From: a virus
IMG/VR virus record: IMGVR_UViG_3300007760_000065
Location: 1 to 30,129 of that record
Length of the DNA stretch: 30,129 nucleotides
Reading direction: 5' to 3' (one strand)
Below, piece after piece: positions 4,577-28,258 of the stretch (its first letter is position 1; each line of letters opens with the position of its first letter). A program made the translations under genes and the position numbers. The notes below the pieces were generated by a model. That model made no database searches and was not told the DNA's origin. It saw only the letters and a list, made by a program, of their open reading frames with translations.

Positions 4577-4590
4577 CGAGGCGCGGCGCT

Positions 4591-5421: not shown

Positions 5422-5436
5422 TAGTAGGGCCACCCC

Positions 5437-5949: not shown

Positions 5950-5959
5950 GAGGCGAAAC

Positions 5960-10796: not shown

Positions 10797-10828
10797 CCAT
10801 AAGGGCCCAACTTTGGAGCATGGACGCA

Positions 10829-11011
10829 ATGCTAATCCTAGGACGGAAACACGGCGAGGCTATTTTGATTGACGGCCCCGCAGAAGTGACCTATTTAGAC
10901 AAGGGCCGCCTGGCGATAGACGCCCCGAAAACCACGCGAATACTACGCAAGGAAGTGGCCGAGAGGGAGACGGCCAGCCAGGAAGGCCACGACGCGCGAC
11001 GGAACGAGTAG
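10829..11011 (+). CDS. csrA: CsrA-family RNA-binding translational regulator
   Basis: The 60-residue product begins MLILGRKHGEAILIDG and continues through IDAPKTTRILRKEVAER, the whole CsrA/RsmA pattern: L4 and the first strand, the GE-x-I turn, DAPK, and the RNA-contacting LRKEV with R40. CsrA dimers bind GGA motifs in mRNA leaders and change translation or stability. I choose the ATG at 10829 because GGAG (10815-10818) is 10 nt upstream; the in-frame ATG at 10820 is one base from it. GGA occurs at the ribosome site, in ATGGACG and again in CTAGGACGG, so self-repression is plausible. It is followed by an intrinsic terminator. Targets may be phage or host messages. Confidence 0.88.
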   Translation: MLILGRKHGEAILIDGPAEVTYLDKGRLAIDAPKTTRILRKEVAERETASQEGHDARRNE

Positions 11012-12552: not shown

Positions 12553-13443
12553 ATGAAACGCGAAGCAGCAAACCACCCAAAGATGCACGACCTAGCCGCC
12601 AGGCTAGGGATAGAAAACGAGCACGCCCTAGGCCTGGTACAGCGGCTTATATGGTTCACCGCAGACCACGCCATAGCCGGCGATATTGGCAAATGGGCCG
12701 ATGGCGCTATAGCCCGCGGTTGCGGCTGGCAGGGCCCCGCGGGCCATTTTGTGGAGTCATTAACCGCGGCCGGCTGGCTGGACGAGTCCGCAGACCACCG
12801 CCTAACGCTGCACGACTGGCCAGACCATGCCGAGAATTGGGTAAAGGCCAAACTAGCCAAGGCCGGCCTACAATTCTTGCCCGAGTACGACACCGCGAAC
12901 GCTGCAACGCCAACCCGCCGGAAACCGGCGAAAACCAGGCGAACCACGCCAGTAGCCACGCCAGTAGCCACGCCAGACGACCCGCCAGACTATACGCTAG
13001 ACGCCACACAAGCGGCGACTGGCGAGCCATCCCCAAACCGAACCGAACCAAACCAAACCAAACCAAACCAAAACCGGCAGCCACCGCTGCCAGCTGGCCT
13101 GGCGGCCAATAGTTTATTTTGTCGAGTTTGGGACGAGTGGCTGGCCTATCGCAAAGCGGCGAAGCTAACACGCAACGGCAAAACCCTGCAGGCCCAATTG
13201 GCCGAACTCGAGCAGCACCCGCCGGCTGCCGGCGCCAGGGCCCTGCAGAAATCAATTGCGAACGGCTGGAAGGGTATCTTCTTGGACGCCCCGCAGGGCG
13301 ACCCACAAGCGAACGGTAAAACCAAGGACGCGACCCGAGACCGCGAAATGGCCCGCGCCAAGATTGTCAAGCAGATGCGCAAAGAGGGCACCGCGCTAGA
13401 CGAGGCCGAGGTAGACAGACGCCTGGCCGAGGCCCTGCCATGA
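12553..13443 (+). CDS. Replication-initiator / helicase-loader-like protein
   Basis: The 296-residue protein has an N-terminal winged-helix-like domain (about 1-100: MHDLAARLGIENEHALGLVQRLIWFTADHA, then GWLDES...LTLHDWPDHAENW), typical of phage replisome organisers. A low-complexity linker (120-178) follows with PVATPVATP and PNQTKPNQ repeats. The C-terminal domain (about 185-296) has VWDEWLAYRKAAKLTRN and ALQKSIANGWKGIFLDAP, a segment seen at the ends of many phage primosomal/replication proteins. The linker DNA is an AAACC pentamer array, as lambda keeps its origin iterons inside gene O. The stop overlaps the sigma-like gene (ATGA). Function is inferred from layout and patterns. Confidence 0.6.
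   Translation: MKREAANHPKMHDLAARLGIENEHALGLVQRLIWFTADHAIAGDIGKWADGAIARGCGWQGPAGHFVESLTAAGWLDESADHRLTLHDWPDHAENWVKAKLAKAGLQFLPEYDTANAATPTRRKPAKTRRTTPVATPVATPDDPPDYTLDATQAATGEPSPNRTEPNQTKPNQNRQPPLPAGLAANSLFCRVWDEWLAYRKAAKLTRNGKTLQAQLAELEQHPPAAGARALQKSIANGWKGIFLDAPQGDPQANGKTKDATRDREMARAKIVKQMRKEGTALDEAEVDRRLAEALP
13035..13075 (+). repeat. AAACC/GAACC pentamer array (candidate origin iterons)
   Basis: Eight consecutive copies of (A/G)AACC, the last with an extra A, lie inside the linker of the replication-initiator-like gene. Three units make 15 bp, so the frame yields repeated PNQTK. The position parallels the origin within lambda gene O, but the unit is much shorter than usual iterons. Confidence 0.6.
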
Positions 13444-14332: not shown

Positions 14333-14634
14333 CAGAAACCGAACGGCTGGCGATTATGAACGAGACCCGCGGGATCTTATCCCAGGCCGCAAACGACCTG
14401 GCCGAGTTTACAGGCGCACCCGCCGGCTGGCGCAACCGCCTGGATTGGTCAGTTTTAAGGGTAACCCTAGAGCAGATAGAGCAGGCCAAGGCCCGCGTAT
14501 TACTTTTACAGTCAAACCACGAAATAGGCGGCACCCATGACGACCGGCAAAGCGGCGAGAGCACGGAAACGCAAAGCGAGGAAACAACGGAACAAAGCCC
14601 GCGCGATGCGAGAGAAGGCGAAGGCAACGGCTAG
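14329..14634 (+). CDS. Small hypothetical protein
   Basis: The 101-residue product starts MTETERLAIMNETRGILSQAANDLAEF and has a helical core to about residue 63, then a Glu/Ser/Thr/Gln-rich tail (about 68-101). The tail region overlaps the start of the next gene by 98 nt in another frame, where that gene encodes a Lys/Arg-rich stretch. The ATG sits in an ATGA overlap with the preceding gene. No family recognised. The tail may be unselected read-through of the overlapping gene's start. Confidence 0.55.
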   Translation: MTETERLAIMNETRGILSQAANDLAEFTGAPAGWRNRLDWSVLRVTLEQIEQAKARVLLLQSNHEIGGTHDDRQSGESTETQSEETTEQSPRDAREGEGNG

Positions 14635-15253
14635 TAAGGTTTACGGCCGACCAGGCCACACTATCGGCGGCACGACAGTTACGCGGCAAGTGCGAGGCCG
14701 CCCGCTGGAATGGCTGGACGAATCAGAACGCTGCGAGGCCTGGCCATTTGATAGCCCGGCGCCTATTCGGATTGCAGTTGACAACCAGCGGCAATGGGCC
14801 CTCACAGTCTGGCGCCACATCGACTACGGCCCCCTGGCCGGATCTTTGCGCGTAGGAATTCGAGCGAACGCCAGGCCACCCCGAGAAGGCGACCGCACCG
14901 AAATACCGGCCGGCGAAATACTGGCCACGTGGTCAGAAATGCAGGCCATAAAAGACCAATTCTGGCCGCACCGCCAGGCCGTGGAAATCTACCCGCCCGC
15001 GGCCGAAGTGGTGGACGTGGCGCCGATGCGGTGGTTGTGGATACTGCCCGCCGGCGAGGCCCTGCCATTCGACCTACGAGCCCAGGCCCTGGCCCCCGAG
15101 GAACCCACCGAGGAACCCACCGAGGAACCCACGGCCGGCCGCTACTGTATCGGTTGCGGCGAGCCACCGAGCAAGTGCGACTGCGACCCCACCGACACCT
15201 ACGACTACGTAGCCGACGATCTAAACTACGACGCCGCCCGCGAGCGCTGGTAA
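14537..15253 (+). CDS. Hypothetical phage protein of the AVEIYPP / LWILP type
   Basis: The 238-residue protein has a strongly basic N-terminus (about 1-35) and a core with WSEMQAIKDQFWPHRQAVEIYPPAAEVV and APMRWLWILP. That pattern, a short globular domain seen in many phages (DUF7694-like), has no proved function. A triplicated EEPT linker (about 194-205) and a terminal Cys cluster CIGCGEPPSKCDCDP follow. The ATG at 14537 is 98 nt inside the upstream gene; an alternative ATG at 14609 would remove part of the basic tail. Its TAA lies within the first copy of the duplicated 29-bp element. Confidence 0.65.
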   Translation: MTTGKAARARKRKARKQRNKARAMREKAKATASKVYGRPGHTIGGTTVTRQVRGRPLEWLDESERCEAWPFDSPAPIRIAVDNQRQWALTVWRHIDYGPLAGSLRVGIRANARPPREGDRTEIPAGEILATWSEMQAIKDQFWPHRQAVEIYPPAAEVVDVAPMRWLWILPAGEALPFDLRAQALAPEEPTEEPTEEPTAGRYCIGCGEPPSKCDCDPTDTYDYVADDLNYDAARERW

Positions 15254-15300
15254 AAACCCGTAGCGCCCGATTTTACCGGCGGCCTGGCTGGCTATATCAT
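15250..15300 (+). promoter_or_regulatory. Duplicated 29-bp element plus -10 box (copy 1)
   Basis: Bases 15250-15278 are identical to 22617-22645. The element starts at the upstream stop codon and contains an inverted repeat GTAAAA/TTTTAC with a 15-nt loop (7 bp here with GG/CC ends). TTTACC (15272-15277), a 17-bp spacer and TATCAT (15295-15300) form a promoter-like pair. It precedes the 96-residue gene at 15334. Confidence 0.65.
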
Positions 15301-15333
15301 CGGCACACACCCACGCCCACAGAGGTAGCCCCC

Positions 15334-15624
15334 ATGGAATGGCTTGCGATCATTACGGCCCTGGCCCCGCTGATTGAACAGTGCAGGCAAAACCGCGGCG
15401 ATGCAGCGGTTAGGCAATCACTAGCCACCGCGGACGCCAGGGCGCAGCGGGCCGTTATCAGCCATATACGCGAATCGACAATAGACGAGCACGGCCGGAA
15501 ATACTGGCGCAAACACCGCGACCGCCTAAAGGCCGACGCACTAACGCAGCTGCAGGGCCTAACTGGCTTGGAAATTGACGGAATACTAGCCGATAGCGCG
15601 GCCGCGGCCGCCGGCGACGACTAG
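15334..15624 (+). CDS. Hypothetical helical protein
   Basis: The 96-residue product begins MEWLAIITALAPLIEQCRQ and is predicted helical, with a basic middle (HGRKYWRKHRDRLK) and an Ala-rich acidic end. The start is chosen because GAGGT lies eight bases upstream; the frame upstream overlaps the previous gene and is rejected. It follows copy 1 of the duplicated promoter-like element by about 30 nt, so it is probably the first gene of a transcript. No family recognised. Confidence 0.6.
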   Translation: MEWLAIITALAPLIEQCRQNRGDAAVRQSLATADARAQRAVISHIRESTIDEHGRKYWRKHRDRLKADALTQLQGLTGLEIDGILADSAAAAAGDD

Positions 15625-15631
15625 AAAGAAA

Positions 15632-15663
15632 GGGCCTAGGGCGCGAAAAGGCCCGCCTGTTTT
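15632..15663 (+). terminator. Weak candidate terminator
   Basis: GGGCCT (15632-15637) and AGGCCC (15649-15654) form a six-bp stem with an 11-nt loop, followed after five bases by four T. It lies just after the 15334 gene. Short stem and short T-run make this tentative. Confidence 0.35.
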
Positions 15664-15680
15664 GGGTGTGAGGGCCAGCG

Positions 15681-15695
15681 CTACAACGATTGTAG
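15681..15695. promoter_or_regulatory. Perfect 15-bp palindrome (possible operator)
   Basis: CTACAA-CGA-TTGTAG is a perfect inverted repeat with a three-base centre, 77 bp upstream of the next gene in an otherwise unstructured gap. It could be an operator site or a short hairpin. Confidence 0.4.
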
Positions 15696-15771
15696 AGGCC
15701 CGCCCCCTGGCCGCAGGAAGCGGCCCGCTGGACTTCTCAACACGAACCGAACCACGCAAGAGGCCGCGGCT

Positions 15772-16026
15772 ATGTCATTACTGCAGAACGGCGTAAAAAA
15801 ACTGGTCGCGCCCACCGCCCACACCAGCAACCCGACGCCCGAGGGCCCCGCCCAGGCCTTGCTGGTGCGAGTGGCTGGAATAGTGAAGATAAAGTGCGCC
15901 GGCGACTCGAGCTATACACAGCTAGAATCTGGCGAACTGGCGGCCGGAGTATGGCACCCCATGCAGGTTACCCACGTGCACACCGACACTACCGCCACCG
16001 TGTTGCTAGGTTACAACGTCTACTAG
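15772..16026 (+). CDS. Small virion protein candidate
   Basis: The 84-residue product is beta-rich: QALLVRVAGIVKIKCAGDS, LESGELAAGVWHPMQVTHVHTDTTATVLLGYNVY. The pattern of strand-turn-strand ending in VHTDTTAT...LGY is like small spike or head-fibre proteins found in many marine phages. A GAGG site precedes the ATG. The next gene follows 12 nt later. Probably structural, by pattern. Confidence 0.6.
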   Translation: MSLLQNGVKKLVAPTAHTSNPTPEGPAQALLVRVAGIVKIKCAGDSSYTQLESGELAAGVWHPMQVTHVHTDTTATVLLGYNVY

Positions 16027-16038
16027 AGGCCGCCCGCT

Positions 16039-16830
16039 ATGCCACAAATAGACAATACCGATAACCGCATCCTGGCCGCTATCAACGAGGTACAGAAATC
16101 GGCTGGCGTGGCCATCAGTGTTGCCAGCAAAGGTAAGGCCCTACTAAAATTCGGACGCAACAAAGTGGTAGGCACCAGCGGCGCCACCTTGCAAGAATTC
16201 TTGGCCGGCGAAACGGACGAGACCTACCTATCCGATAACCTAATAACGCACTTTGCCTCTAGTAATGCAGGCGATACGGTATCAGGCGTGATAGAGGGCC
16301 ACACCATATCGGGCGGTCAGCTCACGTTCGTGACGCAGACCTTTACCTTAGCAGGCCAGACGAAAACCGCACTAGCGACCCCGTTAGCCAGGGCCACCCG
16401 CGCTTACATTACCGGCGCAACCGACCTGGCCGGTATTCTCTACTTCTCCACAGACGTAAGCTATACCGCTGGCGTGCCCGCATCTAACGCCCACCTAATC
16501 GTGGATGGCGTAGACAGCCACAACCAGAGCGAGAAGTGCAGCACGTCACTATCCGCCACTGATTATTGGCTAGTTACCAGCATATACGGCAACGTCTTAA
16601 AAAAGACCGCGGCCTATGCTGACATCGAGCTGCAGAGCAGAACTATAGGCAACGTGTTTAGAACCCGAACCACCTTTGGCGCTAGCAACGTGGCCGGTGG
16701 GCGGATCGAGTTTGACCCGCTACTCATCCTGCCCGCCAATTCAGACGTGCGGCTGCGAGCTATTGCCGATGGCGCCAACACGGACGTATCCGGCGGGATA
16801 GAGGGACACCTGGCAGCTGTTATAGGTTAA
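16039..16830 (+). CDS. Phage structural protein candidate
   Basis: The 263-residue product is soluble, Thr/Ser/Gly-rich and largely beta-predicted (TLAGQTKTALATPLARATRAYITGATDLAGILYF, later DPLLILPANSDVRLRAIADGAN), as in receptor-binding or tail-associated beta-sandwich proteins. No catalytic motif. A GAGG site precedes the ATG. It lies in a block of virion-type proteins between the middle genes and the holin-like gene. Exact role unknown. Confidence 0.6.
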   Translation: MPQIDNTDNRILAAINEVQKSAGVAISVASKGKALLKFGRNKVVGTSGATLQEFLAGETDETYLSDNLITHFASSNAGDTVSGVIEGHTISGGQLTFVTQTFTLAGQTKTALATPLARATRAYITGATDLAGILYFSTDVSYTAGVPASNAHLIVDGVDSHNQSEKCSTSLSATDYWLVTSIYGNVLKKTAAYADIELQSRTIGNVFRTRTTFGASNVAGGRIEFDPLLILPANSDVRLRAIADGANTDVSGGIEGHLAAVIG

Positions 16831-16859
16831 CACCCCCCGCCACAGGTAAGGGCCAGACT

Positions 16860-17294
16860 ATGCCACCGCCAACCCCCGAAACCTTGACCGATGAACAGGC
16901 CGAGGCCTGGCGCCAGGTTTCCCGCCAGACCTTACTACCAGGCGAGCCCGAATGTACGCCCGCCGACGCCCTGCGATACCGCGACAAGTGCGACTGTTAC
17001 ACGCTCGACATTGCAGGCCACGCAGTGCTTGTGTTGACTATTCCGATGACGGAGACCAAGACAGCCCACGGCCGCCTATCCGTTCTGGCCGTGCGAGACG
17101 TGTTATACCCGGCGGCAGTGGACAAGCGGGCCCTGGCCAGGGCCCTGGTGCAATTTGCACAAGACATAGACCAGGACCTATGCTTCTTGGGAGGCATTAA
17201 CCGGCTTGACGCCCTTATGGACGACCACAAGGCCGAGAACCCACGGCTAGTGGTCAAAGGCAAGCACGGGCTACTACGAAGGGGCGGCCAATGA
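16860..17294 (+). CDS. Hypothetical protein
   Basis: The 144-residue product starts MPPPTPETLTDEQAEAWRQVSRQ and contains AVLVLTIPMTETKTAHGRLSVLAVRDVLYPAAVDKRALARALVQFAQ, an alternating strand/helix pattern. No clear motif. Its stop overlaps the next ATG (ATGA). Ordering among structural genes suggests a virion or assembly role, inferred only. Confidence 0.55.
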   Translation: MPPPTPETLTDEQAEAWRQVSRQTLLPGEPECTPADALRYRDKCDCYTLDIAGHAVLVLTIPMTETKTAHGRLSVLAVRDVLYPAAVDKRALARALVQFAQDIDQDLCFLGGINRLDALMDDHKAENPRLVVKGKHGLLRRGGQ

Positions 17295-17806
17295 CCGTTA
17301 ACACGATACGCCCCGATGCGAACGTTAACGCAGTTTGGGATTTTTACGACTACACAAACATTGACGACGCCGTAACGGAACCAACAGCGGGAAACGGCGA
17401 CGAAGCATCACATCAAGACCCATCCACAGGCGCGGCCCAGATATGGGGAATGGCCGACCTAGACGATACCGCCGGCGTAACTGTCACCGAAGTAAAAGTC
17501 TGGATGTACGCCAATAACGGCATTATCGTTGGCGGGCCGGCAACGGTCCGCGTGAAGGTAGATGGTACGTGGTCAGCCACGCAAAACATTACGGGCGGTT
17601 GGGCGTGGACTTCGTACACTTTTGCGATCAGCCAACCCGCGGGCGCCGGTGAAATCGAAATAGAAATAGATACACAGACGCTAGGCAAGAGCGATTTAAT
17701 AGGCGTAGACGTGCTATACGCAGTTGTTACCTATACGGCCACGCCGCCGGCAACACCCCCCAGCGCCACCGCCACAGGCGTGGCGATGTCCGCAGGATTA
17801 CGGTAG
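17291..17806 (+). CDS. Beta-sandwich virion protein candidate
   Basis: The 171-residue product, coupled by ATGA to the previous gene, reads as a jelly-roll domain: VTEVKVWMYANNG, TVRVKVDGTWSA, WTSYTFAISQPAGAGEIEIEIDTQ, DVLYAVVTYTA. This resembles carbohydrate-binding-like modules on phage fibres. A Pro/Thr/Ala tail follows (about 150-171). No enzymatic residues are evident. The stop is three bases before the first unit of the palindrome array. Confidence 0.6.
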   Translation: MTVNTIRPDANVNAVWDFYDYTNIDDAVTEPTAGNGDEASHQDPSTGAAQIWGMADLDDTAGVTVTEVKVWMYANNGIIVGGPATVRVKVDGTWSATQNITGGWAWTSYTFAISQPAGAGEIEIEIDTQTLGKSDLIGVDVLYAVVTYTATPPATPPSATATGVAMSAGLR

Positions 17807-17808
17807 CC

Positions 17809-17872
17809 GTCTCAAAATAAGACGCCGCGGCGTCCCAAAATGAGACGCCAGCCTGGCGTCTCAAAATGAGAC
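17809..17872. repeat. Triple GTCTCA-AAA-TGAGAC palindrome array
   Basis: Three 15-bp palindromes (17809-17823, 17832-17846, 17858-17872) are each built on GTCTCA-AAA-TGAGAC with one changed base in the first two. The spacers between them are themselves palindromic (GCCGCGGC and GCCAGCCTGGC). As a result 17841-17863 is a perfect 11-bp inverted repeat with one central base. The units start 23 and 26 bp apart, roughly two helical turns. The array lies in a 185-bp gap that also contains a T6-G4-C7 run (17893-17909). It may be an operator cluster, an enhancer or a set of alternative hairpins. Confidence 0.75.
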
Positions 17873-17991
17873 CGCCAGGAAATCGTGGGTCCTTTTTTGG
17901 GGCCCCCCCGTGGGCCGTTTCCCACCGGCTGCACCCGTCGCGCATATTTACTCCATCCCGCAAACCGCCCACCCTAACACAGGCCGAGAAA

Positions 17992-18198
17992 ATGAACGCA
18001 AACGCCCTGGCCGTTAACTGGAAAACCACCGCCACAGGCGTGGCCCTAGTGCTAACCGCGCTAGGCACCGCCATACACGCCCTGGCCCAGGGCGAGCCCG
18101 TGCAGTGGGAATTAGTGATAGCGCAGTTGATTACTGGCGTCGGCCTAATCACCAGCCGAGACGCCGACAAGAGCAGCGAAGACAGCCAGCGCAAATAG
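17992..18198 (+). CDS. Holin-like small membrane protein
   Basis: The 68-residue product begins MNANALAVNWKTTATGVALVLTALGTAIHAL, a hydrophobic helix, then a second, weaker hydrophobic stretch ending GVGLITSRDADKSSEDSQ. The NWKTT...GLI..RD...S layout is a common small phage membrane protein often annotated as a holin. The ATG at 17992 is preferred to an in-frame extension to 17866 that would translate the repeat-array spacer. Likely lysis-related but not proved. Confidence 0.6.
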   Translation: MNANALAVNWKTTATGVALVLTALGTAIHALAQGEPVQWELVIAQLITGVGLITSRDADKSSEDSQRK

Positions 18199-18208
18199 CT
18201 GGCCGGTT

Positions 18209-18217
18209 TGCTATACT
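18209..18217 (+). promoter_or_regulatory. Candidate extended -10 promoter
   Basis: TGCTATACT is a good extended -10 (TGn-TATACT, five of six in the hexamer), 11 bp after the holin-like gene. No clear -35 lies at 17 bp, which extended -10 promoters tolerate. It would drive the oxygenase, PLD-like and terminase genes with a leader of about 105 nt containing a hairpin. Confidence 0.45.
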
Positions 18218-18243
18218 GTTTTCGGCTTTGACGCTATGCCCCC

Positions 18244-18278
18244 AGGCCCGCGGGCGACACCAACCCGCCCGCGGGCCT
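18244..18278 (+). promoter_or_regulatory. Perfect 13-bp hairpin in a leader region
   Basis: AGGCCCGCGGGCG and CGCCCGCGGGCCT form a perfect 13-bp stem with a nine-nt loop, between the extended -10 box and the oxygenase ribosome site. It is followed by ATCTAAAAAA, not a T-run, so a leader structure is more likely than a rightward intrinsic terminator. Confidence 0.6.
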
Positions 18279-18330
18279 ATCTAAAAAACCACGACGACCT
18301 AACCAGGCGGGCGGCCTAGGAGGTATGGCG

Positions 18331-18894
18331 GTGGCGACTTTCCCGATATACGAGAACCCCGGCGCACTAAGCCCCGCAGAGGCCGCGGCCATTCTCGCAG
18401 CGAACCCACCCAGCCAGCTGCCTACTTCCACCGTGCGAACGCCCCGCGGGCCTGCACCACGCCCGCACTACCGACGCAGCCGAAGCGGCGACATTACCCA
18501 ACCGCCGGCCGTGGTTACAGCACTGCGCCAGCGGTTTGCGGATCTTTGCGGGCTACCCCTGGCCCACATTGAACCGGCACAGATGGTCAACTACGGCCGC
18601 GGCGAGTATTACGGATTGCACAACGATAACCCGCAAGACCCCGCCAGCGCCGAGCAGATGCAGGCCCATGGCGGCCCGCGGAAGTTTACGGCGGTGGTTG
18701 CTATTTCAGACAGCCACGACGGTGGCGGCCTATACTTCCCAGAAAACGGCTGGCCGGCCGTGCACCCGAAGCTAGGGTGGTTTACGTGGTGGCGGAACAC
18801 CGGCCGAGCAGCACGCCACGAAGCGCTGCCCGTCGAAAAGGGCCACCGCACCGTGGTGGTACTATTCGCCAGAAAAGGGCCCTACGTGGAATAA
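18331..18894 (+). CDS. 2OG-Fe(II) oxygenase, prolyl 4-hydroxylase-like
   Basis: AGGAGGT (18318-18324) abuts the in-frame ATG at 18325, leaving no spacer, so the GTG at 18331 (seven bases from AGGAGG) is the likelier start. The 187-residue product has QMVNYGRGEYYGLHNDN with H97xD99, then KFTAVVAISDSHDGGGLYFPENGW, and RHEALPVEKGHRTVVVLFARKG with H163 and basic residues for 2-oxoglutarate. These are the iron triad and cosubstrate residues of the P4Hc family. It would hydroxylate a protein, peptide or nucleic-acid-linked substrate. Position before terminase is unusual. Family firm; substrate unknown. Confidence 0.85.
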   Translation: MATFPIYENPGALSPAEAAAILAANPPSQLPTSTVRTPRGPAPRPHYRRSRSGDITQPPAVVTALRQRFADLCGLPLAHIEPAQMVNYGRGEYYGLHNDNPQDPASAEQMQAHGGPRKFTAVVAISDSHDGGGLYFPENGWPAVHPKLGWFTWWRNTGRAARHEALPVEKGHRTVVVLFARKGPYVE

Positions 18895-18908
18895 GGCGAA
18901 CCTGCCAC

Positions 18909-19664
18909 ATGATCGAGAGACACAAAAACCCGCTATTGGCCCAGCGGGCCGCCCCCGCGACCACCGGCCCGGCCGGCCTGCAGGCCAGGGCGGCCACGAA
19001 GGACAAAATAAAAGGCGAACTGATAAAGAACGCACCGCTAGGCGGTATCTTAGGCCAGCACACCCACTATCGCACCGCCCTAAAACATAGCCACGAAGAC
19101 CTGCAGAGAGTGCGTAAAGCGGCCGACCTACTAAAACGGCTGCCAGACCCCGGCGAGGCCCTGCACGCAATTATCAACGGCACTTTTTGCTTTTTCGACG
19201 TAATACCCGCACTGGTTGACCTGGCCGGCGCCCGCTGCGAACGGCTCGACATCACCACGCTAGGATTTAATAAGCGAAACGCCGCGGCGCTACTGCGAGA
19301 AATGGACGCCGGCCGAATTGGCCACGTTGAATTATGTTGCAGCGTATTGCATGAAGCGCTAGAGCCTGGCCTATGTCAAAAGCTATGGAGCGAATTGCAC
19401 GACCGCGGCAGCGTACTAAAGTGCGCCAGGAACCATACCAAGGTGCAGTTATTCGAGATGGACGACGGCCGCGCCTACGTGATCGAAGGCAGCGCCAACC
19501 TACGCAGCTGCGCGATGGCCGAGCAGTTTATGATATGCCAAGACCGTGGTTTGCTCGAGTTCCATCGTAGTTGGGTGAGTCAGTTGTGCGCCGACGAGAA
19601 CACCCGGCGCCTAACCGGCCAATTCAACAAGAAGCACGTTATACCGACCAGGCCCGCGGAGTGA
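18909..19664 (+). CDS. Phospholipase D-like superfamily protein
   Basis: The 251-residue product has one HKD-type motif: H176-T-K178...DGRAYVIEGSANL with G194 S195 N197. The PLD superfamily uses two such motifs or one in a dimer; the region FFDVIPAL...ERLDITTLGF matches the first half of a PLD fold. Single-motif members near phage packaging genes can be nucleases or DNA-binding proteins. The ATG follows the oxygenase stop by 14 nt. The small terminase candidate begins right after its stop. A role in DNA processing for packaging is possible; catalytic activity not certain. Confidence 0.72.
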   Translation: MIERHKNPLLAQRAAPATTGPAGLQARAATKDKIKGELIKNAPLGGILGQHTHYRTALKHSHEDLQRVRKAADLLKRLPDPGEALHAIINGTFCFFDVIPALVDLAGARCERLDITTLGFNKRNAAALLREMDAGRIGHVELCCSVLHEALEPGLCQKLWSELHDRGSVLKCARNHTKVQLFEMDDGRAYVIEGSANLRSCAMAEQFMICQDRGLLEFHRSWVSQLCADENTRRLTGQFNKKHVIPTRPAE

Positions 19665-19736
19665 TGCGCGATAGACGACCAACCAACCACGCCCGCAGAC
19701 CCGCAGCTGCCCGCTGCGACAGCCAGCCAGGCCGCA

Positions 19737-20000
19737 GTGGTGGCCGAGGTAAAAGCCTGGCTAGTGGCCGGCCAGACTATGGATTCCATCAGCGAGGCCC
19801 TAGCCCACCACCACCCAACCGCCGACCAGACGGCCACCCTAACCGCGGTGGCCGAGAGCTTGGCCAACGACGCCAACACCGACCCCGCGGCCCTGCGAGG
19901 ATGGGCGCTAAACGCTTACAGGGAAATCTACCGCCGTGCACTCGAGCTAGGTGACCTGGCCATAGCGTTACGCGCGGCCAAGACTATGGCGGAAATGTAA
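19737..20000 (+). CDS. Small terminase subunit candidate (start uncertain)
   Basis: From a GTG at 19737 the product is 87 residues, helical, with VKAWLVAGQTMDSISEALAHH and a C-terminal LRGWALNAYREIYRRALELGDLAIALRAAKTMAEM, resembling small terminase C-termini. It directly precedes the large subunit (TAATATG). The frame stays open and coding-like back to 19665 (DDQPTTPADPQLPAATASQ), but has no ATG, GTG or TTG there. An ATA at 19671 lies 9 nt after GGAG. A TGATG start at 19664 is one frame off, so either a rare start or a one-base indel is possible. Confidence 0.6.
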   Translation: MVAEVKAWLVAGQTMDSISEALAHHHPTADQTATLTAVAESLANDANTDPAALRGWALNAYREIYRRALELGDLAIALRAAKTMAEM

Positions 20001-20001
20001 T

Positions 20002-22281
20002 ATGTTTCCCACCGCCCCACCGCCACCGGCGAAGGCCGTAGCTGCGCCACCGCGAGCGCGGCCCACCGTGCGCGCGAAGGATAGCGCCCGCAAACGGGCG
20101 GCCGCGGCCACCGCCCGCCTGGTGATTGTCCCACCGTGCGAGCACCGCCGGCGGCGCGATATGCTCGAGCAGAACCTAGCCCGCTGGCTACGCTGGTACT
20201 TTCACCACATTTTTACCGACGCCTTCACAGAGCAGCAGCTGGCCATGATCGAAGCGCTACGCGCGGCCGTGGTTCACGGCGGCGACCAGGCGATAGCCGC
20301 CAGCCGCGGCGAAGGTAAAACGACCCTATGCGAGTGCGTGCTAGCGTGGTCCCTTCTGACCGGCCAATCTCGGTTTGCTGTATTGTTCAGCGCCACCGGC
20401 GGCGATGCAGAGAACAGCCTAGCGACGTGGAAAGCACTTTTCATAGACGACGAATCAAAACGGCTGCAGGCCGACTATCCCGAAGTATGCACCCCGGTTG
20501 CGGCCCTAGAGAACACCCCGAACCGTGCGCACTACCAGCTCATAAGCGGCAACCGCCACGACACCGGCGAACCCTACGGCCCCGTTTCTAGCAAATTCCA
20601 GTGGTGCGGACGCCGCGTACAGCTGCCCAAAGTCCCCGGCGCACCTGGTAGCCGCGGCATATTCGCCACCCGCGGGCTAGACGCCGCAGTCCGCGGCCTA
20701 AAGGTAGGCAACCAGCGGCCAGACGTGGCCGTAATTGACGACCCCGACACCGACGAGACCGTAAACAGTAGCGACCAGGCCGCCAAACTGGTGCGAAAGA
20801 TAGAACGCAATATTGCGGGCCTGGCCGGCCAAAAACGGCCGATGGCTCGAGTGATGCTAACGACGATTCAGCGCACCGAGTGTGTCAGCGCCTGGTATAC
20901 AGACCCGGCCCAAAAGCCCACATGGAAAGGCCAACGCCACCGTTTCATGGTGAAACCGCCGGCAAACCTCGAGCTATGGGAAGAATACCAGGCTATGCGA
21001 CTGCAGGCCCTTGAACAATTCGCCAGCGGCCAGGGCGACGACGAACACGCCCGCGGCGCCCATCAATTCTACATCGATAACCGCGCCGAGATGGACCGCG
21101 GCCACGAAGTGGCGAACCCCAACCGATACGACCAGAGCACCCTACCGGATGGCAGCCAGGCCGAGCTATCCGCAGTGCAGGCCTACTATAACCTGGTGGC
21201 CCGGCTTGGCGCAGAAGCAGTGGCTACCGAATACGACAACAGCCCGCCCGAAGAGGCCGCCGCATTAGACACCGGCCTAACCGCCTACCGAGTACAGCAC
21301 CAGGTAAGCGGCTACCCGCGCAAGAGGATACCGCCAGGCGTGGTATGCCTAACCGCTGGTATTGACGTGCGCAAAATAGCGCTGCACTGGACCGTCCGCG
21401 CGTGGGAGATAAACGGCACCGGGTACACGATAGACTACGGCATCCAAGAAGTGCACGGCACCGTGGTGGGCAGCGACGAAGGCCTAGACCTGGCCATCCG
21501 GCGCACGATCTTAGAACGCATGGAAGACTGGCAGGACAGCCCCTACGTGAGAGAGGGCGGCGAGCAGCTGCCGATAAAATTAGCGCTGGTAGACGCCGGC
21601 TGGCGTACCGAGGCCGTCTACCTGGCCACCGAAGAGTGGGGCCACGGCCTAATGCCCGCCATGGGATTCGGGCGCAGTGGCGGCTGCGCTAAACCGAACT
21701 TTTCAGACGGCCAAGGCCAAACCGCGACTCGCAGAAGTGGCGACGGTTGGTTTATGTCCCACCGACCCACCGCGGGCCAGGGCGTCTGGCTAGTCGGCAT
21801 GGACGCAGACCGCTGGAAAGCATGGGAACATGACCGCTGGCTAACCGACCCCGGCCAAGTTGGCGCCATGCACAACCACGGCGCACCGACCGACCCCAAG
21901 AACCGAGATCACCGAAAGCGGCACTTTGCCTATTCCAAACATATTACCGCCGAGGCCGAGGTAGAAGAAATTGTAGACGGCCGGCTAAAGCGGTACTGGA
22001 TGACCAAATCAGACAACAACCACTACCTAGACGCCAGCTATATGGCGAACGTGGCCGCTAATATCTGTGGCGTTAAACTACTGCGCAACGTAAAACAGAC
22101 GGCGGCGAAACAGCCGACAGCTGCGACGGCCCCGGCAGCTGCGGCGAAAACAAAACCACCACCCAAACCTGCAGCCCCGCCGGCGCAGACGCTAGAACCA
22201 CCACCCGCAAAGCGCACGCCGACCAGGCGGCCCCGCGGTGGCGGCCGACCTGGTGGCAACATGGGGCGCAACCGCTGGTAA
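20002..22281 (+). CDS. terL: Terminase large subunit, GpA-like
   Basis: The 759-residue protein has a Walker A loop ASRGEGKTT (100-108), a Walker B strand DVAVIDDPD (241-249), and C-terminal acidic residues TAGIDVRK, LALVDAGW and NHYLDASYMANVAA that fit the RNase H-like nuclease of GpA-type terminases. It packages DNA into the prohead and cuts it. Residues 1-50 are a basic, Pro-rich extension, and the last 75 residues are an Ala/Pro/Lys tail ending in a Gly/Arg stretch; both are longer than in lambda GpA (641). The ATG overlaps the TAAT after the small-subunit stop. This is the best structural anchor of the window. Confidence 0.93.
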   Translation: MFPTAPPPPAKAVAAPPRARPTVRAKDSARKRAAAATARLVIVPPCEHRRRRDMLEQNLARWLRWYFHHIFTDAFTEQQLAMIEALRAAVVHGGDQAIAASRGEGKTTLCECVLAWSLLTGQSRFAVLFSATGGDAENSLATWKALFIDDESKRLQADYPEVCTPVAALENTPNRAHYQLISGNRHDTGEPYGPVSSKFQWCGRRVQLPKVPGAPGSRGIFATRGLDAAVRGLKVGNQRPDVAVIDDPDTDETVNSSDQAAKLVRKIERNIAGLAGQKRPMARVMLTTIQRTECVSAWYTDPAQKPTWKGQRHRFMVKPPANLELWEEYQAMRLQALEQFASGQGDDEHARGAHQFYIDNRAEMDRGHEVANPNRYDQSTLPDGSQAELSAVQAYYNLVARLGAEAVATEYDNSPPEEAAALDTGLTAYRVQHQVSGYPRKRIPPGVVCLTAGIDVRKIALHWTVRAWEINGTGYTIDYGIQEVHGTVVGSDEGLDLAIRRTILERMEDWQDSPYVREGGEQLPIKLALVDAGWRTEAVYLATEEWGHGLMPAMGFGRSGGCAKPNFSDGQGQTATRRSGDGWFMSHRPTAGQGVWLVGMDADRWKAWEHDRWLTDPGQVGAMHNHGAPTDPKNRDHRKRHFAYSKHITAEAEVEEIVDGRLKRYWMTKSDNNHYLDASYMANVAANICGVKLLRNVKQTAAKQPTAATAPAAAAKTKPPPKPAAPPAQTLEPPPAKRTPTRRPRGGGRPGGNMGRNRW

Positions 22282-22293
22282 GGAATTACGACT

Positions 22294-22620
22294 ATGGCCA
22301 AACGAAAACGAGCACCGAGCAAGGTAACGATAGCCGCACCGATGGACACCACCGCAGACGCGGCGCCATTCCGAACGCACCTAGACCTACACCTAACGCG
22401 AGAACAGGGCACGGCCCTGCGACAGCTGGCGGCCGGCCTGGACGACGCAAAGGCGTGCAGCAACTGCGGCCCGAATTGCAGGCGTGGCCCGCGGCGAGTG
22501 ACCAACCCGCAGGGCGCAGTGCGATGGCTACTAGAAGAACTAGCCCGCCAGGTAGCCGCCAAGCGGCCGGCCAAGGCCAAACCGAAACCGCCGGCAGAGC
22601 AACCGGCCGCCAGCCAGTAA
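22294..22620 (+). CDS. Small hypothetical protein with CxxC site
   Basis: The 108-residue product has a basic N-terminus (MAKRKRAPSK), a helix LHLTREQGTALRQLAAGLDDAKACSNCGPNCRRG with a CxxCxxxC cluster, and a Lys/Ala/Pro tail. AAGGA lies about 8 nt before the ATG. It sits between terminase and the gpW-like gene. Its TAA is part of the second 29-bp element. No family recognised; DNA binding is a guess from composition. Confidence 0.6.
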   Translation: MAKRKRAPSKVTIAAPMDTTADAAPFRTHLDLHLTREQGTALRQLAAGLDDAKACSNCGPNCRRGPRRVTNPQGAVRWLLEELARQVAAKRPAKAKPKPPAEQPAASQ

Positions 22621-22667
22621 AAACCCGTAGCGCCCGATTTTACCGCCGACCGCGGGCCCGCTATTAT
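22617..22667 (+). promoter_or_regulatory. Duplicated 29-bp element plus -10 box (copy 2)
   Basis: Bases 22617-22645 repeat 15250-15278 exactly, again starting at the upstream stop codon. TTTACC (22639-22644), a 17-bp spacer and TATTAT (22662-22667) form a promoter-like pair. The next ATG is at 22675, seven bases after the box, so the transcript may start at or near the start codon. Confidence 0.7.
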
Positions 22668-22674
22668 TCGGACC

Positions 22675-22989
22675 ATGGCCGACGACCTAACCACCCTAGC
22701 GGGTATCGAAACCGTTTTAGCCGCCACTAGCGACTACGACACCGACCACGACACCGCGAAGGCCGAGCGATACATAGCCGCTATCCGCCGGCGGTTGCAC
22801 TACGCAGCCAGCAGTGGCCGAGACGGCGAGACCGTGGCATTTAATGTGCAAGTGCTGCAAGGCGAGCTACGCGCCGCGCAGGCCTGGCTGGCGGCGAACC
22901 GGACCCGCACCGAGGCCCAACGTAAAGCTAACCCGAACGTAACGCACGCCGACTTCTCGACATTCCGCGGCTATACGGGAAACAGTTAA
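22675..22989 (+). CDS. Head-tail joining protein candidate (gpW-like position)
   Basis: The 104-residue product is helical: YIAAIRRRLHYAASSG, then DGETVAFNVQVLQGELRAAQAWLAANR. Lambda places the small head-tail joining protein W between terminase and portal, and a central GxxVxF strand followed by a helix with an aliphatic/Arg pattern is compatible with that fold. No ribosome site precedes the ATG; translation may be leaderless from the promoter-like box seven bases upstream. Assignment depends on position. Confidence 0.6.
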   Translation: MADDLTTLAGIETVLAATSDYDTDHDTAKAERYIAAIRRRLHYAASSGRDGETVAFNVQVLQGELRAAQAWLAANRTRTEAQRKANPNVTHADFSTFRGYTGNS

Positions 22990-22995
22990 CCCGAT

Positions 22996-24768
22996 ATGAG
23001 CACCACGAACGGAAACGGCCACAAACCGCCGACCACCGGCCGGCCTATCCTGCCCGCCAATGGCCGGCAGCCCGCGAAGACTGCACCCGCGGCACAGGGC
23101 CAGCATGAGACGCTAAACCGACTGCTTGAACTGGACCGCGAACACTACGCCAAGCGGGCCGCCGCGCCGCAAGACCCGCAAAGCAGCTATCTAGCTGGCG
23201 AGTCAAACCGGATGAACCCCACGCCGGCCGGTATCGACCCGCTAGGCAGTGATGCAGACTACCACTACGGAACGGCCCGCAATTATTACCTAATGATGGA
23301 GCGAGCCAGGGCGGCCGTGCGGAACCACCCCCTGGTGGAGCAGGCCGTAAACCGGCTAATCGCTAACCTACGCTTGACGCAGATTCGGCTAGACCCGGCC
23401 ACCGGCGACAAACCGCTAGACCGGCTACTAAAGGAAAAATGGCTCCACTGGACCGGCGACAAGCGGCTATGCGATTGGGAGATGGCCCGCGACTTTAATT
23501 CTATCGTTTCGCAGTCGTTTTTTAACGAAGTGGTGGACGGCGATATTTTGCACATACCGCTGGCCATGGGCGCCCTGCAAACTTGGGAAGCGCACCACAT
23601 ACGCAGCCCCTACCTGCACCAGTCCACCGGCCAATCGCAGAACGGAATTATGCACGGCGCGGAAGTGCGAAACGGCCGCACGGTAGGCTGGCACGTCACC
23701 CCGGCCAGTTTGAGCTACCTAAACCGCGTGACACGACAGGCCGGCACCCACTTCTATAAACAATACGACCCGGCCGGCAACCAGTTAGCCTTTTATGCCG
23801 GATTCACGCACCGATTTAGCCAGCGCCGCGGAATCAGCCGGCTATCACCGCCGCGCGACGCAATGAACGGTTTTGACGATCTAAACTACGCGCACATCAA
23901 AAGCGCACTGCGCCGTAGCCTCATTAGCTACCTAATGACCAGCACCGGCCCGCCTGGCCCGCCCGTTATGGATGGCGAAGAACTGCCCCAGGCCGGCGAC
24001 CGCTTTGCCGAAGAGATGGGCCTAGGCCTGGAATCGGTTATCGTGGAGCAGCAAGGCGAGCCAGCGCAAGTATTCAAGACGCCCCGCGGTTGGGACTTGC
24101 AAGGCTGGAATGCCAACATGCCCGGTAGCGGCTACTTCGAGCAGTCCGCCCTACTGCTAACCATGCTGGCCGTTAATTTAGACCTGCCCCTATCATTCTT
24201 GCTACTAGACGGCAGCCTAACGAACTTTCACGGCGGCCGGATGACCTTTGACCAGGTGAAATTGCGGCTAGAAGAATTGCAGCGACACGTTATTGCTACC
24301 CGCCACCGGCCCACGTACCGCTGGAAGCTACGACAGTGGACAACACAAGGCCACCACGAATACGACCCAAGACTAGCCGCCGCAGTAGACGCTGGCCGAG
24401 ACCTAGACCGCGTGCAGTTTAGGCCCAAAGGATGGCCCTACGTTAAGCCGATGGAGGACGCCGCGGCCGAGAACCTAGCCGAGAATAGGCAGCTACGCAG
24501 CCGGCGGGAGATCCTAGCCACCCGCGGCCAAGACATCGAAGAGGTAGACGACGAAATTCTAGCCGACCGCGGCGAGTATTTTGCCAAGAGTCTAGAGGCC
24601 GCCCGCGGAATAGTCGCGGCAAACGGCGACCTAGAACTAGACGTGGCAAAGGTAGCGGCCGAGTTACGCTATGGCGGTGGAAGCGCCACTGGCGTGCAGC
24701 TCACGATGGCCGCCGGCGACCCACCACCACCCAACAACAGCAATAACGGAGGGCCGCAAAGTGCCTAG
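22996..24768 (+). CDS. Portal protein, lambda B-like
   Basis: The 590-residue protein shows the lambda-type portal pattern: NYYLMMERARAAVRNHPLVEQAVNRL, HHIRSPYL, LAFYAGFTHRFSQRRGISRLSPPRDAM, then LDLPLSFLLLDGSLTNFHGGRMTFDQVKLRLEELQ. The last segment is diagnostic of Phage_portal_2. It forms the dodecameric channel at one head vertex. The N-terminal 60 residues are disordered-looking (Pro/Asn/Gly). The C-terminus ends DPPPPNNSNNGG, and the next gene starts inside it at a GTG with GGAGG eight bases before. Context (terminase, W-like, protease) matches lambda. Confidence 0.9.
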   Translation: MSTTNGNGHKPPTTGRPILPANGRQPAKTAPAAQGQHETLNRLLELDREHYAKRAAAPQDPQSSYLAGESNRMNPTPAGIDPLGSDADYHYGTARNYYLMMERARAAVRNHPLVEQAVNRLIANLRLTQIRLDPATGDKPLDRLLKEKWLHWTGDKRLCDWEMARDFNSIVSQSFFNEVVDGDILHIPLAMGALQTWEAHHIRSPYLHQSTGQSQNGIMHGAEVRNGRTVGWHVTPASLSYLNRVTRQAGTHFYKQYDPAGNQLAFYAGFTHRFSQRRGISRLSPPRDAMNGFDDLNYAHIKSALRRSLISYLMTSTGPPGPPVMDGEELPQAGDRFAEEMGLGLESVIVEQQGEPAQVFKTPRGWDLQGWNANMPGSGYFEQSALLLTMLAVNLDLPLSFLLLDGSLTNFHGGRMTFDQVKLRLEELQRHVIATRHRPTYRWKLRQWTTQGHHEYDPRLAAAVDAGRDLDRVQFRPKGWPYVKPMEDAAAENLAENRQLRSRREILATRGQDIEEVDDEILADRGEYFAKSLEAARGIVAANGDLELDVAKVAAELRYGGGSATGVQLTMAAGDPPPPNNSNNGGPQSA

Positions 24769-26290
24769 CAACCTGCAGCAGCTCGAGACGTTCAGCACGC
24801 TAGAACCGGCTAGCATTATGCCACAGGCTATCGGCGCACGAGTACCGAACCTGGCCGACTATTTTGGCGTTTGGGCAGTCTATCCGCAGGTATTTACGCC
24901 GATGGTTGAGCGTATAAATAGCCTGGACTTGCGAGCGCATACCAGCGACCCTCGCAACGAAGCGGTGGCCGTTTCGAGGAACGCCCGCCGCGCGTTTGAT
25001 ATGACCGCAGACGGCGTGGCCCTAATTCCGATCAGCGGGCCGACGATGAAGGCAGTCGGCAGCGCCCAGGCCGGCACTAGCACCGTGCGAGTGCGCCAGC
25101 AATTGGCAGCTGCCAGGAAAGACCCGACAGTCCGCGCGGCTATGCTAATCATGGACACGCCAGGGGGAACGGCCAAGGGTAACAGCGACCTGGCCAACGA
25201 GGTAGCCAGGTTTGCCCTGGCGAAACCTGTCCACGCCTTTGCCGAGGACATGGTAGCCAGCGCTGGCGTATCTGTAGCCAGCCAGGCCGGCCGGATCACG
25301 GCGAACTGCAGCAGCTGCCTATATGGCGCCATGGGCACTTTTGCGGTAGTGGTGGATTCTAGCGAGCGGGCGGCCCAGCTAGGCGTGGAAGTGCACGTAG
25401 TGAAGGCCGGCGAATTCAAAGGCATGGGAACACCCGGCACACCCGTAACCAAGGCCCAGCTAGACGAAATGCAACGCATAGTTGAAAGCCTCAACGAGAG
25501 CTACCTAAACCTGGTGGCCCGCGGCCGCGGGATGACCCCGGCCGCCGCGGCAAAGTTAGCAGACGGCCGCATCCACCCGGCGAGCGAAGCGCAGGCCCTA
25601 GGCCTAATTGACGAGATCGGAACTTTCGACGCAGCCTATCAGACGTTATTGGCTGCAATTGACAGACCAGGCGCGCGGCCTGCCACGTCTCAGGTATTCT
25701 TTAACGCCGAAGACGACGAAGACGACGAAGGCGCGGACAGTCCGCCCGACGAAGACGACGCCGAAGAGGCCGACAAGAGACCGACCGACGAGGACGACGC
25801 AGCCGACGACAAAGAAAGCGAAAAGAACATGGCAGCCGCAACCCTACAAGAATTGCGAGACAACTTCCCGAGTAGCACGGCCGATTGGCGAGAGGAGCAG
25901 CAAGTAGCCGGCAACGACCTGCAGACGGCGGCAATTCAATTCGCCAACCTGCAGGCCGACGAAAACGCGAAATTGCGGGCCGCGGCCGAACAGCCGGAAG
26001 ACACGCCCGCACCGCCCGCCAGCCCGCTGGCTATTGGCCACCCACCGCTAACCACGGCCAGCGCCGCTGCGGCGGACCAGGGCCAAAGCGGTAACGCAGT
26101 GGAGGACTTCAACCAGGCCGTAACGGCTATTTGCGGAGCGAACCCCAACCGCGAACGACGAACGCAGGCTATCCGCACGGTGGCGGCCCGCCAGCCGAAC
26201 TTGCACGCAGCCTATCTACTGGCCACGAACCCCGGCCGCAAACGCCAGCGCCAGATTATCGAAAAACTCGAGGAACAGCCGGCCAGCTAA
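24761..26290 (+). CDS. S49 prohead protease with C-terminal scaffold region (lambda C-like)
   Basis: The GTG at 24761 has GGAGG eight bases upstream and is chosen over an in-frame ATG at 24671 inside the portal gene. The 509-residue protein has an S49/SppA core: LIMDTPGGTAKG (129-140), the nucleophile S167 in EDMVASAGVSVAS, and the lysine K220 in GEFKGMGTPGTP, 53 residues later as in SppA. An Asp/Glu-rich linker (about 312-352) follows. The C-terminal 150 residues are helical, Ala/Glu/Gln-rich and end RQRQIIEKLEEQ, as expected of a scaffold. Lambda gpC carries its scaffold Nu3 the same way. Confidence 0.88.
   Translation: MPSNLQQLETFSTLEPASIMPQAIGARVPNLADYFGVWAVYPQVFTPMVERINSLDLRAHTSDPRNEAVAVSRNARRAFDMTADGVALIPISGPTMKAVGSAQAGTSTVRVRQQLAAARKDPTVRAAMLIMDTPGGTAKGNSDLANEVARFALAKPVHAFAEDMVASAGVSVASQAGRITANCSSCLYGAMGTFAVVVDSSERAAQLGVEVHVVKAGEFKGMGTPGTPVTKAQLDEMQRIVESLNESYLNLVARGRGMTPAAAAKLADGRIHPASEAQALGLIDEIGTFDAAYQTLLAAIDRPGARPATSQVFFNAEDDEDDEGADSPPDEDDAEEADKRPTDEDDAADDKESEKNMAAATLQELRDNFPSSTADWREEQQVAGNDLQTAAIQFANLQADENAKLRAAAEQPEDTPAPPASPLAIGHPPLTTASAAAADQGQSGNAVEDFNQAVTAICGANPNRERRTQAIRTVAARQPNLHAAYLLATNPGRKRQRQIIEKLEEQPAS
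25829..26290 (+). CDS. Possible nested scaffold protein from internal start
   Basis: An in-frame ATG (residue 357 of the protease) begins MAAATLQELRDNFPSSTADW right after the acidic linker and would give a 153-residue scaffold alone. This mirrors lambda Nu3 inside gene C. The upstream GAAAGCGAAAAGAAC is purine-rich but has no strong GGAGG, so expression is uncertain. Confidence 0.4.
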   Translation: MAAATLQELRDNFPSSTADWREEQQVAGNDLQTAAIQFANLQADENAKLRAAAEQPEDTPAPPASPLAIGHPPLTTASAAAADQGQSGNAVEDFNQAVTAICGANPNRERRTQAIRTVAARQPNLHAAYLLATNPGRKRQRQIIEKLEEQPAS

Positions 26291-26355
26291 CCTGGCCCTG
26301 GCCCGCCCGACCCCAACCGACCTAACCAACCGAACCAAACCGAGGACTTGGAACT

Positions 26356-27159
26356 ATGACCGCTAAAGTATATGGCGACGTTCGCAGCTTTCCGAATAAC
26401 GCCGCGCTAGGCCGCGGAATTCGCGTGCACCTGTCCAGTAGCAACCTGGCCGCGGCCGGTATTACTGACGACGAAATCGGAGTCATGGAGGAACTAAGCC
26501 TGGCCGGCGATACAAAAGGCGCCGTCCGATTGACTAACGCAGCGGGATCAGTACGAGCGGTGGCCGCCGGCGCTATTACGCAGTACGCAGAAGTCTACGC
26601 AGCTGCCAGCGGCAAAGTTTCCGCGACGGTCAGCGGCCCACGTTGGGGAATTGCCCTAGAAGCGGCCAGCGGCGACGGTAGCGAAATCGAAGTCTTGCGG
26701 CTGCCAGCCAGCAGCGCCGCGGGCGGCGCTATCGTGGCCGAAGAGGTGACGTTCACCGAGGACGGCGACACAACCTACACCGGCAGCGTAAACGTCCCCG
26801 CAGGCGCTACCTTGCTGGACGTTATCGTCCACGCAGTGGCATTGTGGGACGACGGCACCAGCGCTTTACTGGACGTTGGAGACGCCACCGACCCGAATGG
26901 CATCTACACAGCCGTTAATCTCAAGGCCACCGACTTGCTGGCCGGCGAGTCTATCAGTTTCGGATTGACCGGCGGAAAAGAAGGTGCAGACCTGGACGGC
27001 GGCGAAACAGCCGGCGACCACACCCGCCGGCGTTATTTGGCCACCGCGCGAGTTATCAGCGGCGTGGTGACCACCGGCGGCCAAGACGGCACCGCCGGCC
27101 GTACCCGTATGACCGTGGTTTATGCTTTGCCTAACAGCACGGCCGCCACCGGCGCCTAA
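26356..27159 (+). CDS. Head decoration / stabilisation protein
   Basis: The 267-residue protein has an N-terminal segment (about 55-120) with GAVRLTNAAGSVRAVAAGAITQYAEVYAAASGKVS and WGIALEAASGDGSEIEVLRLP, the beta-barrel pattern of DUF2190-type decoration proteins. A second beta-rich region (about 125-265) follows, with GSVNVPAGATLLDVIVHAVALWDDGT. The second part is an extra domain relative to the usual length of about 110 residues. Located between protease/scaffold and major capsid, as lambda D. The leader upstream is G-poor with AACC/CCAAC repeats ending in GAGG. Confidence 0.75.
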   Translation: MTAKVYGDVRSFPNNAALGRGIRVHLSSSNLAAAGITDDEIGVMEELSLAGDTKGAVRLTNAAGSVRAVAAGAITQYAEVYAAASGKVSATVSGPRWGIALEAASGDGSEIEVLRLPASSAAGGAIVAEEVTFTEDGDTTYTGSVNVPAGATLLDVIVHAVALWDDGTSALLDVGDATDPNGIYTAVNLKATDLLAGESISFGLTGGKEGADLDGGETAGDHTRRRYLATARVISGVVTTGGQDGTAGRTRMTVVYALPNSTAATGA

Positions 27160-27223
27160 CACGGACCAAGACCCGACCTAAACCGAACAACCAGCAAACT
27201 ACAACATGTGAGGACGTAAAACC

Positions 27224-28258
27224 ATGGCCGCACCTAGCACAGCCATTACCCGGCTAGACTTGTCGTTTTCGTATGGCGAATTCAACCTAGCGGCGAACGC
27301 CGGTAAGTTTATCGGCCTGCAGATGCTACCCCCGTTGGGAGTGGCGAAAGAGGCCAGCGACTTTGCCAAGGTCGAACTTGAAAGCCTGCTGACGAAGACG
27401 GAAGACACCGAACGCGCGCCCAAGGCCGAATATGGCCGAGATAGTTGGGACTGGACGACCGACAGCTATGCCTGCAAAGAGCACGGCGTAGAGGAAGTGG
27501 TAGACGATGCAACGGTTGAACGCTATGGCGACGTGGTGCGGGCCGAGTTTATCGCAACCAACCGAGCTATCAACCGAGTTTTGCAGCGGCTCGAATTCGA
27601 CATTGCAGCGGCTTGCGAGACGGCCGGCAACAATGGCGCCAGCACGGCGGCCACCACCGCCTGGACGACCGCGGCCACCGCAGACCCCGTGGCCGACATC
27701 GACGCCGCGCATGACCGACTGGAAGCAGCTTGCGGCGAGAACGCCAACACGCTGCAGGTTACCCGCAAGGCCTTCCGCGCGATGATCCGAACCGACCGGC
27801 TGGAAGCCTTGCTAAAGTACGACGCCAGCGAGTTACTGGTAGCGTTAAACAACGGCCAGAATCAGAATATGGTCAGCGAGATCATGAGCGGGCTCAAAGA
27901 CCTGCTGCAAGTTGACCGAATTCTGGTGGCCCGCGGATTCAAGAACACCGCAGACCGCGGCCAGACCGGCAGCCTATCCCGAGTATGGGACGACACCAAG
28001 GCGCATCTTTGCGTGGTGCAGAATGATGGGCTCGAGGGCGACCTAGAAAACCCATCGCCGCAATGGGGCCGCACTGTTTTCTCAACCCAGAACGGCGAGC
28101 AGCTGCCTGGCGTAAATGATGGCGGTTTGGCGTCTCTCATCATGGACGAGTACCGAGACGAACCCGTTCGCGGCAGCGTATTGCGACCACGCAACAAGCG
28201 GGCCGTCAAAATTCTGCACGCGAATTGCAGCCAGCAACTTACAGGCGTGACCGCCTAA
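27224..28258 (+). CDS. Major capsid protein
   Basis: The 344-residue protein begins MAAPSTAITRLDLSFSYGEFNLAANAGKFIGLQMLPPLGV and ends ASLIMDEYRDEPVRGSVLRPRNKRAVKILHANCSQQLTG, with HGVEEVVDDATVERYG and WDDTKAHLCVV between. This arrangement is that of an HK97-fold major capsid family found between decoration and neck genes; the family resembles lambda E-like proteins only in fold. It directly follows the decoration gene, with an A/C-rich leader ending GAGG. Very likely the most abundant virion protein. Confidence 0.88.
   Translation: MAAPSTAITRLDLSFSYGEFNLAANAGKFIGLQMLPPLGVAKEASDFAKVELESLLTKTEDTERAPKAEYGRDSWDWTTDSYACKEHGVEEVVDDATVERYGDVVRAEFIATNRAINRVLQRLEFDIAAACETAGNNGASTAATTAWTTAATADPVADIDAAHDRLEAACGENANTLQVTRKAFRAMIRTDRLEALLKYDASELLVALNNGQNQNMVSEIMSGLKDLLQVDRILVARGFKNTADRGQTGSLSRVWDDTKAHLCVVQNDGLEGDLENPSPQWGRTVFSTQNGEQLPGVNDGGLASLIMDEYRDEPVRGSVLRPRNKRAVKILHANCSQQLTGVTA

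Follow-up and report, generated by a model that had tools for sequence, protein, structure and literature searches.

The DNA analysed here comprises positions 1 to 30,129 of the IMG/VR virus record IMGVR_UViG_3300007760_000065, and this whole stretch of 30,129 bp is referred to below as the window. A second contig, IMGVR_UViG_3300008954_000300, is 99.9% identical to it and links the end of the window (30129) to its start (1) by a bridge of 6156 bp (L009 4555-10710), so that the genome maps as a circle of about 36.3 kb and some of the tail genes fall outside the window. The genes relevant to this study begin with an integrase (8235-9332, minus strand), followed by a phage-encoded CsrA-like RNA-binding regulator (10820-11011), a replication initiator (12553-13443), the adjoining gene of a small sigma-factor-like protein of 170 aa (P0001; 13440..13952, plus strand), a DUF7694 gene (14537..15253, plus strand) and the first copy of a repeated element. 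Downstream of this copy lie mostly unknown genes, a 2OG-Fe(II) oxygenase, an endonuclease-like gene, the large terminase subunit with a GpA nuclease domain (20002..22281, plus strand), the gene of P0003, a protein of 108 aa without an assigned family (22294..22620, plus strand), and the second copy. A small gene then precedes the late head genes, which occupy 22996..28258 of the plus strand: a lambda-family portal (22996-24768), an S49 protease (24671-26290), an unknown gene (26356-27159) and the major capsid gene (27224-28258). Further on are the tape measure and then glycosyltransferase- and methyltransferase-like genes. The integrase, replication initiator, portal, protease and capsid were assigned by family matches, and because an integrase is present the phage is temperate. 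Each of the two blocks of late genes is preceded by one copy of the element, and none was found in the early region. Elsewhere in the window, a cluster of glycosyltransferase-, sulfotransferase- and methyltransferase-like genes extends over 1327-6721, and a palindromic 23-bp tandem array (CGTCTCAAAATGAGACGCCAGCCTGG) at 17808-17878 covers the ATG of the gene at 17866, where it is a possible operator. Scans for tRNAs and Rfam families gave no matches.

An exact sequence comparison over the whole window confirmed the initial annotation in that copy 1 of the element (GTAAAAACCCGTAGCGCCCGATTTTACCG; 15250..15278, plus strand) and copy 2 (22617..22645, plus strand) are identical at 29/29 positions. 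This pair is the longest non-tandem exact repeat of the window, in which the only longer exact repeat is a 15-bp tandem array near 7.9 kb, and the longest repeats found in 60 third-order Markov simulations measured 15-18 bp. Two comparison phages (L023 and L024), which make up a small control only, contained no non-tandem exact repeat longer than 22 bp. The identical block consists of a dyad, GTAAAA-N15-TTTTAC, plus two bases, so that the inverted repeat described earlier is present in both copies, with its arms at 15250-15255/15271-15276 in copy 1 (dyad 15250-15276, centre 15263) and at 22617-22622/22638-22643 in copy 2 (dyad 22617-22643, centre 22630). The centres of the arms are 21 bp apart, which corresponds to two helical turns. 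Inverted repeats of the same geometry (6-bp arms, 15-bp gap) occur 20 times in the window and are thus not rare on their own; the notable point is that the edges of the identical block coincide with the arms of the dyad. The two copies also agree at all 15 positions between the arms. This exceeds the needs of a simple two-arm operator, and the interior may also be contacted, or the copying may be recent.

Both copies are placed alike with respect to the preceding gene. The TAA stop codons of the DUF7694 gene (15251-15253) and of P0003 (22618-22620) lie within the element, as had been noted before, but the identity does not begin at the stop codon itself: the block starts with a G one base ahead of both TAA triplets. 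TAA terminates 13/38 genes of the phage, and since this stop is common, its placement is better ascribed to compact packing than to a special signal. P0003 has a Cys-rich middle part and is encoded just before copy 2; a by-eye suspicion that it is a ribbon-helix-helix regulator was dropped, as there was no Pfam match and the structure model was too poor (pLDDT 55).

The presence of an inverted repeat right at the ends of two genes, in a phage that has a CsrA-like gene, might suggest an element that works at the level of RNA, such as a terminator or a translational control hairpin at the stop codon. We consider this very improbable: the 27-nt hairpin has a predicted energy of only -0.6 kcal/mol, its arms are unpaired in longer folds (z -1.1 and +0.2), and the element holds no GGA motif for CsrA. 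An intrinsic terminator in particular was rejected, because there is no stable G+C-rich hairpin with a T run; no such run follows the element, and the terminator scan did not report it.

A different function is suggested by what overlaps and follows the right arm of the dyad. A putative -35 hexamer, TTTACC, is found at 15272..15277 in promoter 1 and at 22639..22644 in promoter 2 (both plus strand), overlapping the right arm in each case, and the coordinates agree with the earlier statement that exactly 17 bp separate it from a putative -10 hexamer, which is TATCAT at 15295..15300 and TATTAT at 22662..22667 (plus strand). The -10 boxes lie outside the identical block. Only 7/17 positions agree between the two spacers, while 10/17 differ; what is kept is therefore the boxes and their spacing, as the initial annotation had argued. 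By a simple frequency estimate, the probability is about 5e-6 that -10-like hexamers (5/6 or better) would stand at a shared offset of 16-18 bp in both copies. The sites resemble those of the sigma-70 type, with TTTACC agreeing at 4/6 positions with TTGACA, a 17-bp spacer, and TATCAT or TATTAT at 5/6, although the promoter consensus of the host may differ. In a generic promoter scan, both sites scored 9/12; it returned 12 sites in all against 5.3 expected by chance, so that, given ten other sites, the scan taken alone is weak evidence, to which the agreement of the two copies adds. No third composite site (TTTACC-like, 16-18 bp, TATAAT-like) was found on either strand of the window or the bridging contig.

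The predicted transcription start of promoter 1 lies at about A15307. The resulting leader would measure 27 nt and contains an SD-like GAGG, about 12 nt upstream of the ATG at 15334, where the first gene (15334..15624, plus strand) encodes a protein of 96 aa with a weak Bbp19-like Pfam match below the cut-off. For promoter 2, the predicted start is 22674/22675; position 22674 is one base before the ATG at 22675, and, judging from the sequence, the mRNA would have no leader or almost none. No SD-like motif was found before 22675, and about a third of the predicted genes of the phage are without one. The gene at this position (22675..22989, plus strand; 104 aa) has coding potential and lies between the terminase block and the portal; its product gave no family match, and by position only it could be a head-tail joining protein.

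The number of copies was established over the entire genome. In the window, no third site matches the 27-bp dyad with 3 or fewer mismatches, and shuffled sequences contained none either. The contig IMGVR_UViG_3300008954_000300 contains one copy, which matches the position of copy 2, and no further copy was found in the 6156-bp bridging stretch. Since this stretch lacks the element and the window holds two copies, the genome has exactly two, which answers the earlier suggestion to search the rest of it. Outside this phage and the one near-identical contig, the element was not found. Searches of viral contigs for diverged relatives, using the terminase, capsid, portal, protease and DUF7694 proteins as queries, yielded near-identical contigs or nothing, and the terminase had no match in 84,980 genomes. 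A 9-kb stretch compared with phage records by megablast had no match, and tblastn against the same kind of records gave distant matches, none of which covered 80% of a structural protein. A degenerate form of the dyad was found among viral contigs only in IMGVR_UViG_3300008954_000300. When the dyad was combined with the -10 box, 12 further stretches were retrieved from viral contigs, but all were in AT-rich contigs (27-37% GC), several being copies of one sequence, and they were taken as chance matches; a 35-bp blastn match in HK97-like tape measure genes was also attributed to chance (E = 4). The contig that is 99.9% identical to the window tells nothing about selection.

These data bear on the view that the element is a short duplication without a regulatory role, arising by copying or recombination between gene ends, or representing a small mobile repeat or a recombination site. 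Such an origin would account for 29 bp being wholly identical, the interior included, and for both copies being placed alike on a TAA stop. It would not account for the matched -10 boxes, which stand at equal distance outside the repeat. Moreover, there are only two copies, the exact element is absent from the 84,980 genomes and from other viral contigs, and recombination between direct copies would delete the terminase. We therefore regard a functionless duplication as improbable.

From the arrangement described above, we favour, at somewhat better than even chances, the reading that each copy is the operator-plus-promoter region of one of two late transcription units, with the dyad serving as an activator site. 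In support of a promoter/operator, both sites are intergenic, carry sigma-70-like boxes at 17 bp, occur as two genomic copies and have late genes downstream; points counted against it are that TTTACC has only 4/6 agreement with TTGACA, that promoter 2 is near-leaderless, and that the interior of the dyad is identical. The initial annotation had proposed a promoter/operator class for middle and late genes. The promoter/operator part is still the best reading and copy 2 is clearly late, but the term "middle" goes beyond the sequence evidence: the genes that follow copy 1 are mostly unknown up to the terminase at the end of the block, and both promoters may thus be late.

Relative to the predicted starts, the centre of the dyad lies at about -44 in both copies, and the dyad overlaps the -35 region, which is the position of class-II-like activators (about -41 to -44). 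The main rival reading is that a phage repressor binds the dyad and shuts both late promoters in the prophage or in early infection. Any protein bound to the dyad would lie on the -35 box and keep the polymerase out, and the phage is temperate, as its integrase indicates. On the other hand, a scan of the window found no copy of the dyad near the predicted early region (10.1 kb) or the integrase, family scans recognised no repressor gene, and temperate phages usually repress early, not late, promoters. A repressor operator is accordingly a possible but rather unlikely explanation, and we rank the activator site ahead of it.

The activator reading is based on analogy with Mu Mor and P2 Ogr. At the Pm promoter of Mu, inverted repeats centred at -43.5 and separated by a G/C-rich spacer are bound by a dimer of Mor, which takes the place of the -35 contact (PMC4390567). 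The present sites are similar in that a dyad whose spacer is G/C-rich lies at the -35 region, followed by a -10 box of the sigma-70 type and by phage genes, an arrangement also comparable with C at the Mu late promoters, and the centre of the dyad, at about -44, nearly coincides with that of the Mor site. However, the Mor site is 16 bp long with 5-bp arms, whereas ours is 27 bp with 6-bp arms and N15, and Pm has no -35 hexamer, whereas TTTACC is present here. Family scans gave no match to Mor/C above the cut-off and only a match below it, PF08765 on P0001 (E 0.042). In P2, four late promoters share the motif TGT-N12-ACA, which is used by Ogr (PMC3931495). The likeness to P2 and its Ogr, or to P4 Delta, consists in several late operons having one dyad motif upstream, which in P2 is read by one small phage activator. 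The differences are that the dyad of our phage is GTAAAA-N15-TTTTAC, and thus not a motif of the P2 type, that it marks two promoters instead of four, and that Ogr is a zinc-finger protein, of which none was recognised in this phage: family scans covering most predicted genes and part of the small ORFs gave no match for an Ogr-type gene. The P2 motif also lies further upstream, at about -55.

With regard to the protein that might act at these sites, P0001 is the first candidate regulator of both promoters because of its location and its sigma-like domains. Its gene belongs to the preceding block and lies 1.3 kb ahead of copy 1. The protein has a significant match to Sigma70_r4 (E 2.6e-9), whereas region 2 is weak, and its region 4 retains the RpoD-like stretch VTRERIRQIE; the sub-threshold match to PF08765 (Mor) falls on its HTH. 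Residues 15-146 align to a two-domain sigma70-ECF model below the cut-off, and a structure search with a weak model placed mostly sigma chains on top, none of them significant. Phages with their own sigma-like late regulators include T4 with gp55 and those with sigma-r4-like proteins of the ArpU/RinA types, and our phage resembles them in that its replication block, which precedes the late genes, includes a small sigma-like gene. It differs in that the boxes resemble sigma-70 sites and are accompanied by an extra 27-bp dyad, and in that P0001 is a candidate only.

The same properties could mean that P0001 replaces the host sigma factor and itself reads TTTACC and TATNAT, the upstream part of the element being a recent duplication without a separate role. 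The significant region 4 match, the two-domain alignment and the structure search speak for this, but VTRERIRQIE in region 4 suggests TTGACA over TTTACC, and the end of the identity at the dyad arms would be left without a reason. A sigma factor alone would not explain the conservation upstream of -37, and we consider this reading unlikely. With similarly low probability, the element could be part of a late-gene switch with a new 27-bp operator in which all positions are used and which is read by a sigma-like protein or by an unrelated new dimeric activator, the head operon then having a leaderless mRNA.

Returning to the preferred reading of two coordinately controlled late promoters with an activator site, we infer promoter activity, binding of a dimer, activation over repression and the identity of the binder from the features above, and the following mechanism may be proposed. 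P0001 would be made from the replication block just upstream. A phage-encoded dimer would bind the 27-bp dyad, its arms presented on one face of the helix, from about -57 to -31 with the centre near -44, and would most likely recruit the polymerase, as class-II-like activators do. The polymerase, either that of the host or a host core with the phage sigma-like protein, would use TTTACC-N17-TATCAT/TATTAT. Unit 1 would then extend from 15334 through the terminase, and unit 2 from or next to the ATG at 22675 through the head, tail and glycosyltransferase genes.

Mu and P2 already provide examples of an operator shared by several late promoters, and the element is in this respect an ordinary kind of phage control element, although its duplication is unusually exact. 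Should P0001 be the activator, this would connect a small phage protein of the sigma-like kind with a specific site on the DNA. Acting through one operator at two promoters, a single regulator could turn both blocks of particle genes on or off at the same time, and this gives a concrete hypothesis for the activation of late genes in a temperate phage that is uncultured and lacks close sequenced relatives.
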